IMG/VR virus record: IMGVR_UViG_3300036859_000534
Span: 1-43,869 of that record
Source: a virus
Direction: 5' to 3' (one strand)
DNA: 43,869 nt
Shown here: positions 3,024-13,337 of the stretch, piece after piece
How the letters are laid out: each line of letters starts with the position of its first letter
Position numbering within the stretch: position 1 is the first letter of the stretch
Position numbers and translations under genes: made by a program
Notes under the pieces: model-generated
The model's input: only the letters and a program-made list of their open reading frames with translations
Told to the model about the DNA's origin: nothing
Database searches by the model: none

Positions 3024-3370
3024 CCGACCCGCTCTGGCTCCTCGCGCTTATCGCCGCGGTCGGCGCGGGCTGCTTCTTCGCCGGCTGGCGGTCCGCGCGA
3101 GCCTATCTTCAGGCCGCCGAGTCCGTGTCGGCCATCACCAACGCGGTCGCGGACCAGGCGAACGCCACCCGCGAGGCGCTGGACAAACAGACCGCGGAGT
3201 ACGCACTATTGCGAGCGGCCCTGAACCAGAACACGAAGGTCATCGACGAGAAGATCCAGGACGTCGAGACCGCTATGGTCACTCTCTTCCAAGGATTCGA
3301 GCGTGCCGGAATCGTCAAAAGACCCAAATCGGGGCCCGGGCTCCAGGTCGGAGAGGCGAGCGAGGAATAA
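3020..3370 (+). CDS. Membrane-anchored coiled-coil protein
   Basis: 116 residues. The N-terminal transmembrane helix (about residues 5-24, LLALIAAVGAGCFFAGW) is followed by a long helical region with heptad character (about residues 30-95) and a short polar tail. The ATG overlaps the preceding stop (ATGA). The architecture resembles phage inner-membrane accessory proteins or the i-spanin type, but it lies far from the lysis genes near 30 kb. Function unassigned. Confidence 0.7.
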   Translation: MTDPLWLLALIAAVGAGCFFAGWRSARAYLQAAESVSAITNAVADQANATREALDKQTAEYALLRAALNQNTKVIDEKIQDVETAMVTLFQGFERAGIVKRPKSGPGLQVGEASEE

Positions 3371-3420
3371 GGCCGAGTGGAGGAAACGCTTCCCCTGGCG
3401 GTACAAGAAAGAGAGGGCAA

Positions 3421-3633
3421 ATGAAGTCAGCAACGAAGTTCGGATGCAGGGTCGTGGGGCACGAGATGATCTTCAAGAAGGACCAGACACTCGTGAAGAT
3501 CAAGCTCAAGAACGAGGTCGCCGGCCTCAAGGTGGAGCTGATCGTGGACGAGGAGGAGCGGGTCAACTACCCGTTCGGGTCGTACGCGATCGTGGACTTC
3601 AGCGTCCAGCAGCCCATCCCGTTCGAGAAGTAG
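3421..3633 (+). CDS. Small beta-rich hypothetical protein
   Basis: 70 residues, alternating hydrophobic strands (TLVKIKLKN, LKVELIVDEEERV, YAIVDFSV) with high third-position GC. GAGAGG lies 4 bases before the ATG. It overlaps the only available canonical start of the terminase frame, so either the terminase N-terminus or this gene needs checking. The coding pattern favours this gene as real. Confidence 0.65.
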   Translation: MKSATKFGCRVVGHEMIFKKDQTLVKIKLKNEVAGLKVELIVDEEERVNYPFGSYAIVDFSVQQPIPFEK

Positions 3634-5459
3634 CAGCGCGGCGGGGGGCGGCCGAGGACGTCCCGCCCCCTACCGAATTCCCAGGTCTCGAGTACTACTC
3701 GGATCTCAACCGCTTCCCTGAGTTCTGTCGGGACTGCCTCGTCATCATCACGAAGCAGGGCGAGCGCGTCCCGTTCATCCTCAACAGCAGTCAGCGCGCG
3801 ATCTTCCAGAAAATCCGCGCCCTCGTAGCCGCCGGAATACCCCCGCGGCTCGCGATCCTGAAAGCGAGGCAGGTCGGGGTCTCCACGCTCATAGAGGCCC
3901 TCCTATTCTGGGACTGCCTCATGCGCCCGAACCGCTCGGCGCTCGTCGTCGCCCACACGCTCAAGAGCTCCCGCGCCCTTTTCCGAATGAGCCGCAACTT
4001 CCACCGTTTCCTCCGGGAGGAGATGCAGCAGGAGACGCGAATCCAGAACGTCCACGAGATCGAGTTTGACTCGGGCTCTCGCCTCCAGGTCGAGGTGCAG
4101 GGAGACCCGCGAGGCTATACCGCGCAGTGCGCTCACTTGAGCGAGTTCGCCTACTTCGAGCAGCCCGAGGACACGCTCGTCGCCATCATGCAGACGATCC
4201 CGATGACGCCGGACTCCTTCGCCGCCATCGAGAGCACCGCGAGGGGGGTCGGAAACAAGTTCCACAAGATCTGGCAGCGAGCCGTGGGTTTGGGGCTGGA
4301 CGACGACGTGCCCGAAGACGAGAAGGGCTGGACTCCGATCTTCATCCCCTGGTTCCAGCACGAGGAGTACGAGCATCCGGGGCCGCTGAACCGGCTCTCG
4401 TCCGTCGAAGAGAAGCTCATGCGCGACCATCCAGAGATCACGCGCGCGAAACTGAAGTGGCGCCGGTGGTGCATCAGCGCGAACCTGGACGGAGACGAGG
4501 AGCGCTTCGCCCAGGAGTACCCGGCCACCGACCAGGAGGCCTTCTCCCTCTCGGGCCGCCCCGCCTTCGACTTCGAGTCGATCGCTCACTACACGAAGGC
4601 GCTGTCCGATCTCGTCGCGGCGAAGGAGCTGCCGTGGTGCATGGAGATCGAGGCCGAGCCGCCCGGGTTCGGGCCGCCATACCTCGTTCCCTACGACCGA
4701 GGAAGACTACGGATTTTCTTCGAGCCCAAGGACCGGCACACCTACATCGTGGGCGCGGATCCCTCCGAAGGCGATCCCGGGTCCGACCCCTCGCCGCTCG
4801 CGGTCCTGGACGACCAGACGATGGATCTCTGCGCGACCTGGTACGGGAAGGCTCCCCCGGACGTCCTGGCGTGCCACGCCATCGACCTCGCCCGCTACTT
4901 CAACGACGCGCTCGTCATCAACGAGGCGAACAATCACGGCATCCTCTTCCACGAAACGGTGCTTCAGATCGGCTACGCGAATCTCTATTTCAGGAAGGTG
5001 AGCGAGGAGTCGGTCGCGGGGGAGATCGCGGAGAAGCCCGGGTACCTCACGACGCGGCGCAATCGCGAGTACCTCTTCAACACGCTCAGGAAGTACGTGA
5101 GGATGAGGATGGGCCGGATCCACTGCCCGCACATGGTTCAGCAGATTCAGTCCTTGATCTACGTCGACGACAAGGTGCAGGCTGGGCTCGGGCAGGAAAA
5201 AGACCTCCTCGTCGCGTTCGGGCTCTGTCTCATGGCGCACCGCGGGACGATGAACAACCCGCTCGAGCCGCACCCGGAGATGATCGTGCGCTCGGTTGCG
5301 AGCGCGGCCCAGCTCCTCAAGGAACGGGAGGGCTCGGGCGCCGCCAGCCGTTTCGTCGTCGAGAGCGGGATGACGATGGACGAGGTGCTGAATTTCCAGG
5401 ATGCTATAGTTGCTCGGGACGCCAGGCGGAAGAGATACGGGCTGGGAGGGTTGAGATGA
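3444..5459 (+). CDS. terL: Terminase large subunit (start uncertain)
   Basis: ATPase-nuclease that packages DNA into the prohead with the portal. The N-terminal ATPase has a Walker A-like KARQVGVST (about 3861-3887) and an acidic Walker B-like HLSEFAYF (about 4134-4157). The C-terminal RNase H-like nuclease starts at VGADPSEGDPGSD (about 4749-4788), with NEANNHG and KDLLVAFGL as the later acidic strand and helix. The family core begins near 3690 (LNRFPEFCRDC). No ATG, GTG or TTG is in frame between 3447 and about 3925, so the only starts are ATG 3444 or GTG 3303, both overlapping the 70-residue gene in another frame. The Arg/Gly-rich first 70 codons are probably not native sequence. No small terminase subunit is recognised. 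Confidence 0.9.
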   Translation: MQGRGARDDLQEGPDTREDQAQERGRRPQGGADRGRGGAGQLPVRVVRDRGLQRPAAHPVREVAARRGAAEDVPPPTEFPGLEYYSDLNRFPEFCRDCLVIITKQGERVPFILNSSQRAIFQKIRALVAAGIPPRLAILKARQVGVSTLIEALLFWDCLMRPNRSALVVAHTLKSSRALFRMSRNFHRFLREEMQQETRIQNVHEIEFDSGSRLQVEVQGDPRGYTAQCAHLSEFAYFEQPEDTLVAIMQTIPMTPDSFAAIESTARGVGNKFHKIWQRAVGLGLDDDVPEDEKGWTPIFIPWFQHEEYEHPGPLNRLSSVEEKLMRDHPEITRAKLKWRRWCISANLDGDEERFAQEYPATDQEAFSLSGRPAFDFESIAHYTKALSDLVAAKELPWCMEIEAEPPGFGPPYLVPYDRGRLRIFFEPKDRHTYIVGADPSEGDPGSDPSPLAVLDDQTMDLCATWYGKAPPDVLACHAIDLARYFNDALVINEANNHGILFHETVLQIGYANLYFRKVSEESVAGEIAEKPGYLTTRRNREYLFNTLRKYVRMRMGRIHCPHMVQQIQSLIYVDDKVQAGLGQEKDLLVAFGLCLMAHRGTMNNPLEPHPEMIVRSVASAAQLLKEREGSGAASRFVVESGMTMDEVLNFQDAIVARDARRKRYGLGGLR

Positions 5460-6062: not shown

Positions 6063-7907
6063 ATGGCCGGCACCGCGTTTGACCTGGGCGACCAGGGGAC
6101 CTTCGTCGCTCGGGAGCGACATGTACCGGAGACCCCGCCGTTCGGCTCCTTTGGGGACGGCGAAGAGGGCGAGGGGAAGCTCAAGGCCTGGGTTGCCGAG
6201 AAGTGGAACACGCTCTTCCAGCTCAAGCGTGGCGAGACGGAGCGGCTCAGTACGTGCGAGCTCTTCTATGCTGGGTTCCACTACATCGACGCCTGGGACA
6301 ACCGCAACAACGCCGTCACGAACTACTGCTTCTCGACCGTCGAGACGATCTGGCCGATCCTGACCCAGGCGAGGCCCAGGCCGGAGCCCGTACCCCGGAA
6401 GTCGATGGACTCGGCGAAGGTGGCACGGCTTCGCGACTACGCGACCTACAAGATGGACTCGAGCGGGTTCGACCGGATCTTCCGCATCGCGGTGCGCGAC
6501 ATGCTCAAGTACGGCTGGTGCTGCCCGATGATCGGGTGGGATGCCCAAGGCCGCGCCGTGCCGAGATACCTCTCCCCGTTCGACTTCTACTACGACCAGG
6601 CGATCGACGAGTCGGAGCTCGAGTGCCTCGCGATCGCTCGCCCGGTCTCGACGCGGCGTCTCCGAGCCCTGTTCCCGAAGGTCGCGGACAAGATCCACCC
6701 CGACAACATCGCGAGCCCGAGCTACCGCGTCCTCGTTCAGCCCTACCTCGAGGCCGCCGGTGTGCTCGGCGGGCTGGCTGCGCCGCAGTTCATAGGGACG
6801 ATGTCGATGCCGTCGGCCATCGTGGAGGGAAGTGCCGCGGCCGTGACGAGCGGGCAGTACGGGATCGACACCGGCTCCTTCCAGGTTTTCGGCCAGACGA
6901 CATTCCTGATCCAGCTATTCGTTCGCGACTACACGACCATGTCCGTCAGGTACGACGGGACCCGGTTCATCCAGCACGACGCCGGAGAGCTCAAAGTTCC
7001 TCATTCTCTCACGCAGCAGGAACCGTGCTGCCCGTCCGGCTGGCGGATGATCCCGATGACGGCTGGCGGGGTGCTCCTGGACGCGCCGAGGCCGGTCGAC
7101 CCCTGTCTAGGCGGGATCCCGGTCGTGATCGGGCGCGACTACGAGCAGGGCGGCCGCTTCCCGGGAAAAGGCGAGCAGGACGACATCATCCCGATCCAGC
7201 GAGACATCAACCGGAGCGACGCCACGATCGCGCGCGCCCTGGAACTTCAGGGGAACCCGCCCGTCACGGTCACGAAGGACGCTGGACTCTCAGCGGACAA
7301 GGCCTCGATCGAGGGCGGGGAGATTCTCACGATCCGCCGCGGCTCGGTCATCCAGTACCTCCAGCCGCAGGGGCTCGCGGAGTCTCACTTCGTTCGCCGC
7401 GCCGGGAGGAGGCAAGACATCCAAATCATCTCGGGCACGCCCGACTCGCTCCAGGGACAGCGCCCAATCGGGGTAGAGGCGGCCTCGGCGATCCGACAGC
7501 TCACCGAATCCGGCGCAAGCCGCGCTCGCGCCAAGGGCGCCGGCCTGATCGACTGCTTCGCGCTCCTGCTCCAGAAGATGATCCACGCCGACATCAAGAA
7601 GAGCCGGGACGTGATCTACTTCTCGGCCAACGACGGAACGGAGATGTGGCTGAACCCGGCCGACTACTCGACCGAGGACTTCGAGATCCGCTGGGCGCAG
7701 GACAGCGGCGACGCTCAGAGCCGCCAGGACCGCGTCGACACCGACAAGGAGCTCTTGCAGCTCGGAGTGATCGACGCGCAGCAGCTTCTCGAGGACATGG
7801 ATTATCCTGATAGGGCGAACATACTCCAGCGCCTCGCGATCAGGCAGGTGCAGGCAGCGCAACTCGCGGCCGCCCAGGGCGGCTCGCGGAACGGAGGGGG
7901 ACGATGA
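6063..7907 (+). CDS. Portal protein
   Basis: 614 residues, the usual size for podovirus-type portals. It forms the dodecameric ring at the capsid vertex through which DNA passes, and it docks terminase and the tail adaptor. Support comes from position (after terminase, before scaffold and capsid), the helical wing start ([36 protein letters not shown]), the clip/stem-region [20 protein letters not shown] (a common portal motif) and the Gln/Ala-rich C-terminal barrel ([17 protein letters not shown]). It begins one base after the FmdB-like stop. Confidence 0.88.
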
Positions 7908-8757: not shown

Positions 8758-9081
8758 ATGGTCATGAGCCCAGAGACACCCATCAATCCGGTGGCGGCGG
8801 CTCCGCCTGACCGCCCGACCATGACGCTCGAGCAGTGGGCGCAAATGGGGCTGGCGCTGATCTTCGGAGACCGGCGCATGGACGACAACGAGAGGCAGAT
8901 CCTCTTCGACTTCTACCAGGAGGTCGCCGCGAGGGGCGCGAACGGAGGCATCGGAAACGGCGCCACTCCGCCCGCAGGTCAGGCCGAGGCTCCGCCTCCG
9001 AGTCCGATGGACATGAACCAGAACACCGAGGACATGGGCACCGTTGAGGGTGCCGAGCCCCAATACGCAGGAGGCTACTGA
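8758..9081 (+). CDS. Hypothetical protein upstream of scaffold
   Basis: 107 residues, ATG 8758 behind a G-rich ribosome site (GGGAGGGGG). A short helical core (MTLEQWAQMGLALIFGDRR, DNERQILFDFYQEVAA) is flanked by Pro/Gly-rich disordered ends. It sits in the head module directly before the scaffold, sharing its final A with the next ATG. It may be a head accessory protein. Family not recognised. Confidence 0.7.
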   Translation: MVMSPETPINPVAAAPPDRPTMTLEQWAQMGLALIFGDRRMDDNERQILFDFYQEVAARGANGGIGNGATPPAGQAEAPPPSPMDMNQNTEDMGTVEGAEPQYAGGY

Positions 9082-9914
9082 TGCCGGCTCCGGCCACTCC
9101 GATCATCCCGGCCGACGCGATGGCGAAGGCCGACGAGAAGGCGAAAACCAAGGACTACTACGACAACCTGACGGACGAAGAGCGCGCCGAAGAGGGGTTG
9201 CCCCCGCGGGAGCCTGCAAAGGCTGATACCGCGCCCGGCAAGGAAGCCCCGCCCGAGGAAAAGCCCGAAGAAGAGGAAGAAGAGGTCGAGGAGGAAGAGG
9301 AGCCGACCGAGGAATACGACGCGGCCACGCTCCAGCTCTTCGAGGAGATCGCCGGCCTGCGGGAGGACATCAGCGGCCTCACAGGCAAGCCCAAACCGAA
9401 GACTGAGAAGCAGGAGGACGCGCAGCTCCGGGATGCCCTCGAGCATGAGGACCCCGTCGTCCGCGCCCAAGCCGAAAGGCTCAAGGCCGCCGAGGACCGG
9501 GTCGAGCAACTCGAGAAGGCCGCTCGACAGGAGCGAATCAACCGCCAGTACGACAAGGACACGGCCGACTTCGACGCTGTTCAGAGCAACTACCTCGTCG
9601 ACGGGAAACCGATGACGGACAAGCAGGTCGAGGCGGTCGAGAACTACATGCACAAGAACAAGGAAGTGGGGAGCCTGATCGCCGTAGAAGACGCCGCCTT
9701 TATCGTCTTCAAGAGCAGGCTGACACTCGCTCCCAAGTCGCCCCCGGCCAGAGGCCCCGGCGACTCTACCAACGGAAAGGGCTCGCCCGTTGCCACGATC
9801 GTGGACACAGGAAGCGCCGGAGGAGCCAGCGCCGGCCCGTGGAAGCCGAGGCCCACTGAAACGGTAGAGTCGGCCGTGCAGGCCGCAGGAAAAGCATTCG
9901 GCTGGACGCGCTGA
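9081..9914 (+). CDS. Scaffolding protein
   Basis: 277 residues, very acidic near residues 50-75 (long Glu run), then a coiled-coil region (about residues 80-155) and a Pro/Gly-rich C-terminus. A charged, helical, low-complexity protein immediately before the major capsid gene is the usual profile of a phage scaffold, which guides capsid assembly and is then lost. The assignment rests on composition and position, since scaffold sequences are poorly conserved. Confidence 0.7.
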   Translation: MPAPATPIIPADAMAKADEKAKTKDYYDNLTDEERAEEGLPPREPAKADTAPGKEAPPEEKPEEEEEEVEEEEEPTEEYDAATLQLFEEIAGLREDISGLTGKPKPKTEKQEDAQLRDALEHEDPVVRAQAERLKAAEDRVEQLEKAARQERINRQYDKDTADFDAVQSNYLVDGKPMTDKQVEAVENYMHKNKEVGSLIAVEDAAFIVFKSRLTLAPKSPPARGPGDSTNGKGSPVATIVDTGSAGGASAGPWKPRPTETVESAVQAAGKAFGWTR

Positions 9915-9938: not shown

Positions 9939-10991
9939 ATGACCTCATCGTTCCCCTGGAACCAGGCGAACGTGATGGTGCAGGACTACATCATCCCCAC
10001 CATCCAGGACCAGATTTTCCTCTCGAACGCGATGCTGAATCGCATGCGAGGGCGCACCAAGCACTTCACAGGCGGACGGCGCATCGTCGTTCCGCTCGGG
10101 TGGAGGACGCAGGGCGGCATCAAGTGGTTCGCCGGCGCGGACGTGTTCGCCCCGACGATCCGGGATCCCTTCCAGGCGGCCGAGTTCACGCCGAAGAACG
10201 CCAACGTCGACCTCACGATCGACTGGGACGAGGAGATGACCGCCTCGGGCCCGGAGAAGGTGATGGACCTGATGGAGGCGAAGGGCGAGTGGGCCCGGAA
10301 CACCTTCTTCGACGGCATGGCGACCGACATCTACAACGACGGCACCGACACCCGTGCCCTAGCGGGCCTCCAGTACGCGCTGAAAGAGGGTGCGACTGGC
10401 GGCCAGCTTCCTCCGACGATGACCTACGGCGGGATTCCCCGGAGCGCCACGTTGAACACGTGGTGGAACCACAACTCCGACAACCCGACCACGGCCTACG
10501 TCACCGGAGCCTCGAGCACCTTCGCGGGCTCGGCGACGACGGGACCGAACTTCGCTCCGATCAACAAGATGTTCGCCAACATCAAGCTCCGCTCAGGGAA
10601 GCTGCCGACCCTGATCCTGAGCAACGTGGGGGCGTGGAGCGACATCCACTACAACCTCGTGAAGAACGAGCGCTACCAGCGCCCGCAGCAACAGTCCGAC
10701 CTCTTCAAGGCCGGCTTCGAGAACTTCATGTTCCGCAACGCGACCTGGGTGCAGGACGAGAAGGCACCCAGGGACACGTCGGCGAACAAGTTCGAGAAGG
10801 TCTACCTGATCTACGAGCCGGCGGTCCGGTTGTACGTCGACTCGCGTGCGGACTTCGCCTTCGAGCCGTTCCGCAAGCCTCACAACCAGATGGTTCGCAC
10901 CGCCTACATCCTCTGGCGCGGCGAACTCATCATTTCCGAGCCGCGTGCGTGCGGGGTCATGCCCCGTATCGACACGAGTGGCGTTTCGTAA
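9939..10991 (+). CDS. Major capsid protein
   Basis: 350 residues, HK97-fold type by overall pattern: N-arm (DQIFLSNAMLNRMRGRTKHF), a charged strand region (TIDWDEEMTA), a helix (EKVMDLMEAKGEWARNTFFD), a Gly-rich surface loop (about residues 155-205), then the A-domain-like segment TLILSNVGAWSDIHYN and C-terminal strands ending in GELIISEPRACGVM. Size and position (after scaffold, before decoration protein) agree. GGGAG lies upstream of the ATG. Confidence 0.85.
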   Translation: MTSSFPWNQANVMVQDYIIPTIQDQIFLSNAMLNRMRGRTKHFTGGRRIVVPLGWRTQGGIKWFAGADVFAPTIRDPFQAAEFTPKNANVDLTIDWDEEMTASGPEKVMDLMEAKGEWARNTFFDGMATDIYNDGTDTRALAGLQYALKEGATGGQLPPTMTYGGIPRSATLNTWWNHNSDNPTTAYVTGASSTFAGSATTGPNFAPINKMFANIKLRSGKLPTLILSNVGAWSDIHYNLVKNERYQRPQQQSDLFKAGFENFMFRNATWVQDEKAPRDTSANKFEKVYLIYEPAVRLYVDSRADFAFEPFRKPHNQMVRTAYILWRGELIISEPRACGVMPRIDTSGVS

Positions 10992-11006: not shown

Positions 11007-11576
11007 ATGTTGAACGTCGGACTGGAACAGCAACAGCAGATCCGCGGCGCGGACGGCACCCTTCTCTGGAGCGGCGCTCAGGCGATCGCGGCAAGCTACA
11101 TCTGCATCAGCAGCGAGGCCTCCGCTGCGTTCGTGATGGGCGAGGGCGCGCTGTGGGATCCGGCGACCGTGAGCACGGGCTTCATCCCGAGGCAGGAAAC
11201 GACGGCCGCGGGAGCGACCCCGGCGTCGGACCTTCCCGGAACGCTCGTTCTGGGGATCAAGCGCACGACGGCCGGCGGCGTCGGTACGGACGTCGGTTTC
11301 CTGGGCGTGGTCCAGGAGCCGGTAGGGCCCGGCAAACGCGGCATGGTCGCCGGGCCAGGAAGTCTTACGACCGTGCTTGTGACCACGGGCGCCATCGCGG
11401 TGGGGACCCTCATCGTCAGTTCGGCGACGATCGGGCTCTGCGCTCCCGCCGGGACGAAGTCGGCGACGGTGCCGGCTTACGGAACCGTGCTGGGGGTGTG
11501 CCTCAAGACGAACACGACCGGCGCGACCGGAACGAACAGCACGAGCTGGGCGGGCGTTTTAGTAATGCCGCAGTAG
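11007..11576 (+). CDS. Capsid decoration / head-stabilising-like protein
   Basis: 189 residues, small-residue-rich beta protein (Ala, Gly, Thr, Val) directly after the capsid gene. Repeated strand-turn patterns (GTLVLGIKRTT, DVGFLGVVQEPVGPGKRG, TTVLVTTGAIAVGTLIVSS) recall phage decoration or head-completion proteins with a jelly-roll fold. A strong hairpin follows it. The assignment is by position and composition. Confidence 0.6.
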   Translation: MLNVGLEQQQQIRGADGTLLWSGAQAIAASYICISSEASAAFVMGEGALWDPATVSTGFIPRQETTAAGATPASDLPGTLVLGIKRTTAGGVGTDVGFLGVVQEPVGPGKRGMVAGPGSLTTVLVTTGAIAVGTLIVSSATIGLCAPAGTKSATVPAYGTVLGVCLKTNTTGATGTNSTSWAGVLVMPQ

Positions 11577-11894: not shown

Positions 11895-13337
11895 TTGGCT
11901 GACAATACCGTGCTTAACGCGGGCTCCGGCGGGGACACCTATGCCTCGGACGACATCACCGGGGTCAAGTTCCAGCGCGTCAAGGTCGTCCACGGCGCCG
12001 ACGGCGTCAACGCTGGCGACGTGGCAACCGGCAATCCACTGCCCACCGTCCAAACGGGCGCCCTGCCAGCCGGAACGAACAATATCGGTGACGTAGACGT
12101 GCTGACGCTCCCGGATGCCACTGTGGTAGGCAAAGCCGCTGACGGCGCTGCGGTATCTGGCAATCCAGTGCTCGTGGCGGGCCAGGATGGCACCAACGCC
12201 CAGAGCATCAAGACCGATGCGGACGGGGAGCTCCAAGTCGACGTCCTGACGCTTCCTGCACTCGTAGCTGGAACGGCGAATATCGGCGATGTCGATGTTC
12301 TCACCATGCCCGACGTGACCGTGGTCGGGAAGGCGGCAGACGGGGCCGCGGTGAGCGGGAACCCGGTACTGATCGCCGGGCAGGACGGGACGAACGCGCA
12401 GAGCATAAAGACCGATGCCGCCGGTGAATTGCAGGTTGACGTTCTTACTCTGCCGGCCCTGGTGGCTGGGGCCGCGAACATCGGCGACGTAGACGTGCTG
12501 ACGGTCCCGGCTCCTCTTTCCACGTCCGGCGGCGGCACGGAGGCCGCGGCCCTGCGCGTCACGCTGGCGAGCGATTCCACGGGTCTCCTGGCGGTGAAGG
12601 GTGACGTGGATCACGACGCGGTCAACACGCTCAAAGTCGTCCAGGTAGGCGGCCACGCTTCTCCGGCGGATGTTCCTCCAGCGCTCGTATCCGCAAGCGA
12701 TGATCGCGTGAGATCGTGGCTCGATCGCGCAGGCGCGACGATCATGAGGCGGAGAAAGCTCAGGGAGTCGTACACCGCGGTGTTCCGTCTCGCAGAGGCG
12801 GCAGCCCGCCTCGATCAGACGTTCACGCACGTAGCCAACACGAACAAGCAGTGGGCGACGCTCCACCATACCGGGGCCTCGACTAAGGAAGTCAGACTGC
12901 AAAGCTGCGTTGCCTGGATCACGTCGGCGATCACCGCCGCGCCACAAGGCATCATCGAGCTCCGCCAAATCAGTGCTGCTCCGGCTACCGGAAACCCGGC
13001 GATTACGCCCACGCCGCACCGGCGTGGCGGGACGGCTGCGGAAGCGATCTGCCTCTACCTGCCGACCACGGCTGGAACGGAGGCGAACGTCAATTCTCCT
13101 CTGGGCCACCACGTGTTCGATGAGGCCGTCTCCGTCGCGACCGCGGCCTTTGCCCATCCGCAGGGATATGGCAGGGGCGGTATCGTTCTCTATGATGCCT
13201 CGCTGGAGGACGATGAGGTGATGCCTCCGGTGCTTCCGGTCGGCACGCTCGACGGATGGGCGGTAGTCACCAGATTGACCGGCGCCACGGTGATGAGGAT
13301 GACCGTGGTGATGAAGTTCACCGAAGAGATCCCATAG
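11895..13337 (+). CDS. Virion-associated protein with tandem 66-residue repeats
   Basis: 480 residues from TTG 11895 (GGAG upstream). The N-terminal part has two full 66-residue repeats (residues 63-128 and 129-194) plus a partial third, each with NIGDVDVLT, VVGKAADGAAVSGNPVL and AGQDGTNAQSIKTD. This 'GKAADGaAVsGNPV..aGqDG' module is familiar from phage virion proteins and probably makes a beta-solenoid or shaft. Residues about 240-480 form a compact beta domain (TLHHTGASTKEVRLQ, GIIELRQIS) like virion surface domains. Likely a tail or head appendage; exact role unknown. The two repeats use mostly different synonymous codons. Confidence 0.75.
   Translation: MADNTVLNAGSGGDTYASDDITGVKFQRVKVVHGADGVNAGDVATGNPLPTVQTGALPAGTNNIGDVDVLTLPDATVVGKAADGAAVSGNPVLVAGQDGTNAQSIKTDADGELQVDVLTLPALVAGTANIGDVDVLTMPDVTVVGKAADGAAVSGNPVLIAGQDGTNAQSIKTDAAGELQVDVLTLPALVAGAANIGDVDVLTVPAPLSTSGGGTEAAALRVTLASDSTGLLAVKGDVDHDAVNTLKVVQVGGHASPADVPPALVSASDDRVRSWLDRAGATIMRRRKLRESYTAVFRLAEAAARLDQTFTHVANTNKQWATLHHTGASTKEVRLQSCVAWITSAITAAPQGIIELRQISAAPATGNPAITPTPHRRGGTAAEAICLYLPTTAGTEANVNSPLGHHVFDEAVSVATAAFAHPQGYGRGGIVLYDASLEDDEVMPPVLPVGTLDGWAVVTRLTGATVMRMTVVMKFTEEIP
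12081..12476 (+). repeat. Two tandem 198-base coding repeats, synonymously recoded
   Basis: Units 12081-12278 and 12279-12476 encode 66 residues each, identical at 61 positions by my count. Of those 61 identical residues only about 15 use the same codon. A third partial unit begins at 12477. Confidence 0.85.

Follow-up and report, generated by a model that had tools for sequence, protein, structure and literature searches.

How can two neighbouring repeats of a viral gene encode almost the same peptide and differ at nearly all of their silent sites? This question is raised by a gene at positions 11895 to 13337 of the IMG/VR virus record IMGVR_UViG_3300036859_000534, a virus contig of 43,869 bases that is called the window here. 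The gene codes for a repeat protein whose two 66-residue units had been singled out in a preliminary description of the DNA. We propose, with a probability of roughly 0.72, that these units are old repeats under strong purifying selection, the silent sites of which have drifted to saturation while recombination has purged DNA-identical copies. The gene and its parts, which are needed throughout, are as follows.

11895 to 13337, plus strand: repeat-protein gene, 480 amino acids, TTG start codon with GGAG upstream
11895 to 12047, plus strand: N-terminal module, putative virion anchor, consensus MADNTVLN..GGDT..DDI.GVK.QRVK..GADG, conserved in relatives
12081 to 12278, plus strand: unit 1, 66 amino acids, B-module and A-module sequence
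12279 to 12476, plus strand: unit 2, 66 amino acids, 92% identical to unit 1 as protein and 70.7% as DNA
12477 to 12503, plus strand: partial third copy, first 9 residues of a unit (NIGDVDVLT)
12543 to 13334, plus strand: C-terminal region, probable tip, the single close relative found being locus L001 at about 70% amino acid identity

The unit pair

Recounting the two units (12081 to 12278 and 12279 to 12476) reproduces the figures of the preliminary description exactly: 61 of the 66 residues are identical and 5 are replaced, and among the 61 identical residues 15 keep the same codon and 46 use a synonymous one. An alignment by codon, suggested there as a check, gives a nonsynonymous distance (dN) of 0.065 by the NG86 method, and the synonymous distance (dS) is saturated and not computable. 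The stated protein identity of about 92% with almost fully changed silent sites thus holds. Fourfold sites agree in 5 of 35 cases (G, A, V, T and P), or 5 of 40 if the fourfold leucine box is included, and the longest exact DNA run in register is 11 base pairs (bp). For comparison, the minimum DNA identity attainable for the two unit peptides is 59%. Each unit combines two modules, A (about 38 residues, AADGAAVSGNPVLVAGQDGTNAQS) and B (18 residues, IGDVDVLTLPALVAGTAN), and both modules reappear in varied combinations among the relatives.

The same state is reached between viruses in the other parts of the gene. The N-terminus is 86% identical to that of locus L133 over 71 aligned residues with a codon sharing of 0.48 (0.48 at random), and the C-terminus is 70% identical to that of L001 with a codon sharing of 0.43 (0.46 at random). 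Both comparisons are at codon saturation, so that high protein identity with saturated silent sites is normal for this gene. The reading frame is confirmed by relatives encoding the same protein.

Survey of the gene family

The protein belongs to a MADNTVLN/IGDVDV family by its N-terminal module, by its 18-residue B and approximately 38-residue A modules and by its position after the head genes. Related genes in about 100 environmental viral contigs were examined. A scan of IMG/VR with the B module gave 321 encoding stretches; the 80 best were retained. The survey comprised 104 distinct open reading frames (ORFs), 71 of them with at least 20 repeated residues, and the repeat frame was forced against longer shadow ORFs. 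For each gene we estimated the fraction of codon identity by descent between internal repeats (f).

The median f of the 71 genes is 0.082; values lie below 0.1 in 42 genes, between 0.1 and 0.3 in 16, between 0.3 and 0.6 in 10 and above 0.6 in 3. The window gene has the lowest f of all. In locus L022, 56 of 56 repeated residues are identical with 17 shared codons (18.6 expected), and the fresh end of the continuum is represented by L058 (f 0.97) and L072 (f 0.73). The family gene L058:3-746 is a nearly DNA-identical array in which 295 of 300 repeated codons are shared. The unit pair is no isolated oddity but typical, and illustrates well a regime seen across the family; the remark that so clean a case is uncommon in nature fails within the family, as 42 of the 71 genes are codon-randomised. 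Selection that acts on the protein, as the preliminary description had it, and leaves silent sites free to vary is well supported by the dN of 0.065 and the saturated dS together with the same regime across the family.

Across the 71 genes, codon sharing neither rises nor falls steadily as the copies lie farther apart. Exact peptides common to different viruses share codons at 1.05 times the random level, a value from a first survey that lost some genes, the window gene included, to longer shadow ORFs. A control of a few unrelated flanking repeat ORFs, several of which are shadow frames of family genes, gave 1.5 to 3 times the random level. A distinct long repeat protein (L012:8316-12398, 1361 amino acids) has internal repeats sharing codons at 1.64 times random. 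Given the low f values and the near-random sharing between viruses, most family repeats behave almost as if their copies had parted as long ago as the viruses. The open-licence literature searched yielded no account of phage fibres with codon-randomised repeats.

The window is a single metagenome contig, and two strain variants could in principle have been joined in tandem during assembly. We regard such an artefact as most improbable: the frame is intact through an exact period of 198 bp, dozens of contigs, assembled from many samples, show the same pattern, and the family genes agree between paired contigs of separate samples.

Probable loss of a unit between two relatives

One unit difference could be mapped precisely. 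The gene L016:1616-2683 equals L014:5992-7281 minus one unit of 222 bp (74 residues), with zero mismatches over the gene. Units 1 and 2 of this gene match perfectly over 51 bp; the breakpoint can be placed anywhere in a range of 53 bases over that match, and the flanks compared are 100% identical. This is probably a natural copy-number variant. Assembly collapse could in principle be the source of the shorter L016 form; against this, the identical stretch is short and the longer form is resolved in three contigs. The loss within a 51-bp match supports the instability of long identical stretches and fits the survival of diverged copies. Conserved unit number in relatives had been named beforehand as a supporting sign, but unit number varies among them.

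Mechanistic interpretation

In the explanation we prefer, the two units would have arisen when part of the shaft of a phage surface protein, a fibre or a decoration protein, was duplicated long ago. Strong purifying selection would keep the repeat peptide near a consensus that is common in environmental phages, and the silent sites would meanwhile drift to saturation. Fresh duplicates with long identical DNA would readily be lost or gained via recombination, and the arrays that persist would be those with diverged DNA.

While one must keep in mind that this explanation is the favoured one, several points weigh against it. The codon sharing of the unit pair (0.25) lies below the saturation floor of 0.43 to 0.48 seen between viruses for the other parts of the gene, and neutral drift does not predict a sharing below that floor. 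Neither an ancestor nor a one-unit relative was found among the relatives examined, and the age of the duplication is deduced from saturation alone. Moreover, short-read assembly may under-report DNA-identical arrays and thereby inflate the randomised share.

The sub-floor value leads to a different view, namely active selection against DNA identity, where synonymous changes that break direct repeats are favoured and fewer codons are shared than by chance. Phage shaft genes would then carry a natural "repeat-proofing", in which selected synonymous changes push the sharing of codons beneath the chance level and keep unit number stable. The 15 shared codons compare with 28.6 expected from the codon usage of the window (P 0.00014), 26.6 from the ORF outside the units (P 0.0011) and 25.1 from the whole ORF (P 0.004), and the DNA identity of 70.7% compares with 78.5 ± 2.1% expected. 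A recoded synthetic repeat gene with maximally distinct copies reached about 70% (PMC4083281). The rare codons in both units and the lowest f among the 71 genes point in the same direction, as does the observation that the window units share more codons with units of other viruses (mean 0.34 to 0.36) than with each other.

These signals become weaker under stricter nulls: a pooled codon shuffle gives P 0.04, unit-specific usage P 0.065 and uniform codons P 0.18. Among unit pairs from different viruses that have 30 or more identical residues, 18% show an equally low sharing, and a look-elsewhere correction applies to a pair that was chosen as extreme. Family-wide, adjacent copies in 17 arrays (17 genes) share 266 codons compared to 272.8 ± 8.9 under column-wise permutation. 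With codon sharing held fixed, 3 runs of at least 6 shared codons were counted where 8.4 ± 3.4 are expected (P 0.065; per-gene sign tests are invalid for such rare events), and the deficit of exact repeats is not significant. An 18-bp exact stretch also persists between the start of unit 1 and the partial third copy (12477 to 12503). We discarded an apparently strong avoidance of exact repeats of 18 to 21 bp relative to synonymous shuffles: among genes whose f is under 0.05, 6 repeats of 18 bp stand against 53 in the shuffles, but this set had been picked for low sharing.

Active codon avoidance is possible but unproven, and we consider it rather unlikely as the explanation of the unit pair, as we do natural repeat-proofing of shaft genes. 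The earlier suggestion of selection against repeated DNA stands as a possibility through the unit loss inside the 51-bp identity; it is undemonstrated, with P ranging from 0.0001 to 0.18 depending on the null and family tests that are null. Taken as a whole the earlier interpretation is half right, that is, partly supported.

What the survey provides is a natural set of 71 genes with repeats at every stage, from fresh DNA copies to full codon randomisation. Together with the unit difference mapped to 51 bp it allows one to measure the DNA divergence that repeats need in order to persist in phages, and it can be used to test selection on silent sites against recombination.

Genomic context and origin of the gene

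The gene lies directly downstream of the head genes of a tailed phage. The order is terminase (3303-5459), portal (6063-7907), putative scaffold gene (9081-9914, probably so by its position), major head protein (9939-10991), a small conserved gene (11007-11576) and the repeat-protein gene. The nearest viruses were found with one of these:

9939 to 10991, plus strand: major head protein (phrog_9953), the query for finding the nearest viruses

The product is probably a virion fibre or decoration protein, as judged from position and architecture. PHROGs yielded no match for it, and for the C-terminal region (12543 to 13334) there is no solved relative and there are few homologues. A structure model built by AlphaFold from 13 family sequences was unusable (mean predicted local distance difference test, pLDDT, of 35). 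A Pfam MG4 macroglobulin domain on the repeats (27.2 bits, cut-off 24.7; best stretch 44 of 95 positions) was rejected as a chance match; no stretch exceeds the cut-off by itself.

A related major head protein (72 to 95% amino acid identity) occurs in nine contigs. L133, with a head protein identity of 95%, carries an equivalent gene at the same place with the same N-terminus, without the 66-residue units and with another shaft and tip; L134 (93%) has no such gene at the locus. By this comparison the repeat-protein locus is mosaic. The N-terminal module is common to many of the loci L001 to L018 and to the isolate Synechococcus phage MinM1, where the family gene is also located a few genes downstream of the portal. 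Elsewhere in the window, the product of 14968-15807 matches the L134:12133-14211 protein at its two ends only, the L134 middle having several hundred extra residues, which would represent a domain insertion or swap.

The mosaic locus brings up the idea that the units were imported separately, from different phages carrying the same consensus repeat. The glycine codon preference of the units, GGC in one and GGG in the other, would agree with this. However, the closest protein relative of each unit is the other unit at 92%, and among the loci fetched none exceeds 79% to either (42 of 53 columns, in L020), which makes separate import quite improbable. Import of the gene as such is another matter. 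Both units are built from rarer codons than most of the genome, which may be due in part to a recent import of the gene. The codon adaptation of the gene (0.589), the lowest among 14 window genes compared, likewise suggests recent import.

Comparison with known systems

Polyubiquitin is the classic case of protein repeats that stay nearly identical while their silent sites diverge widely; whether it evolves by concerted or by birth-and-death evolution has been debated (Nei et al. 2000 and later work, as described in PMC10457151). The window units are alike in being kept by purifying selection, at high protein identity and with saturated silent sites, and unlike in that codon sharing is lower between the two sister units (0.25) than between them and the units of other viruses (0.34 to 0.36). 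With this codon sharing of 0.25, the unit pair gave no sign of concerted evolution at the DNA level within the window gene.

A designed counterpart is the MpAFP RII tetra-tandemer, in which four identical repeats were recoded to avoid recombination, leading to about 70% DNA identity (PMC4083281). The two window units are likewise almost identical as peptides and about 70% identical as DNA. The tetra-tandemer is a human design against recombination, whereas the window pair is natural and selection for its divergence is unproven.

The closest likeness is to the MADNTVLN repeat proteins of environmental tailed phages, with their IGDVDV and AADGAAVSGNPVLVAGQDGTNAQS repeats, one of which is annotated in MW202601 as a "glycoprotein repeat domain-containing protein". 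The window gene agrees with them in the N-terminal module, in both repeat modules, in the position after the head genes and in its codon-randomised repeats. It differs from these relatives in its tandem 66-residue A+B unit, found in the window gene only, and in a tip otherwise found in L001 only.
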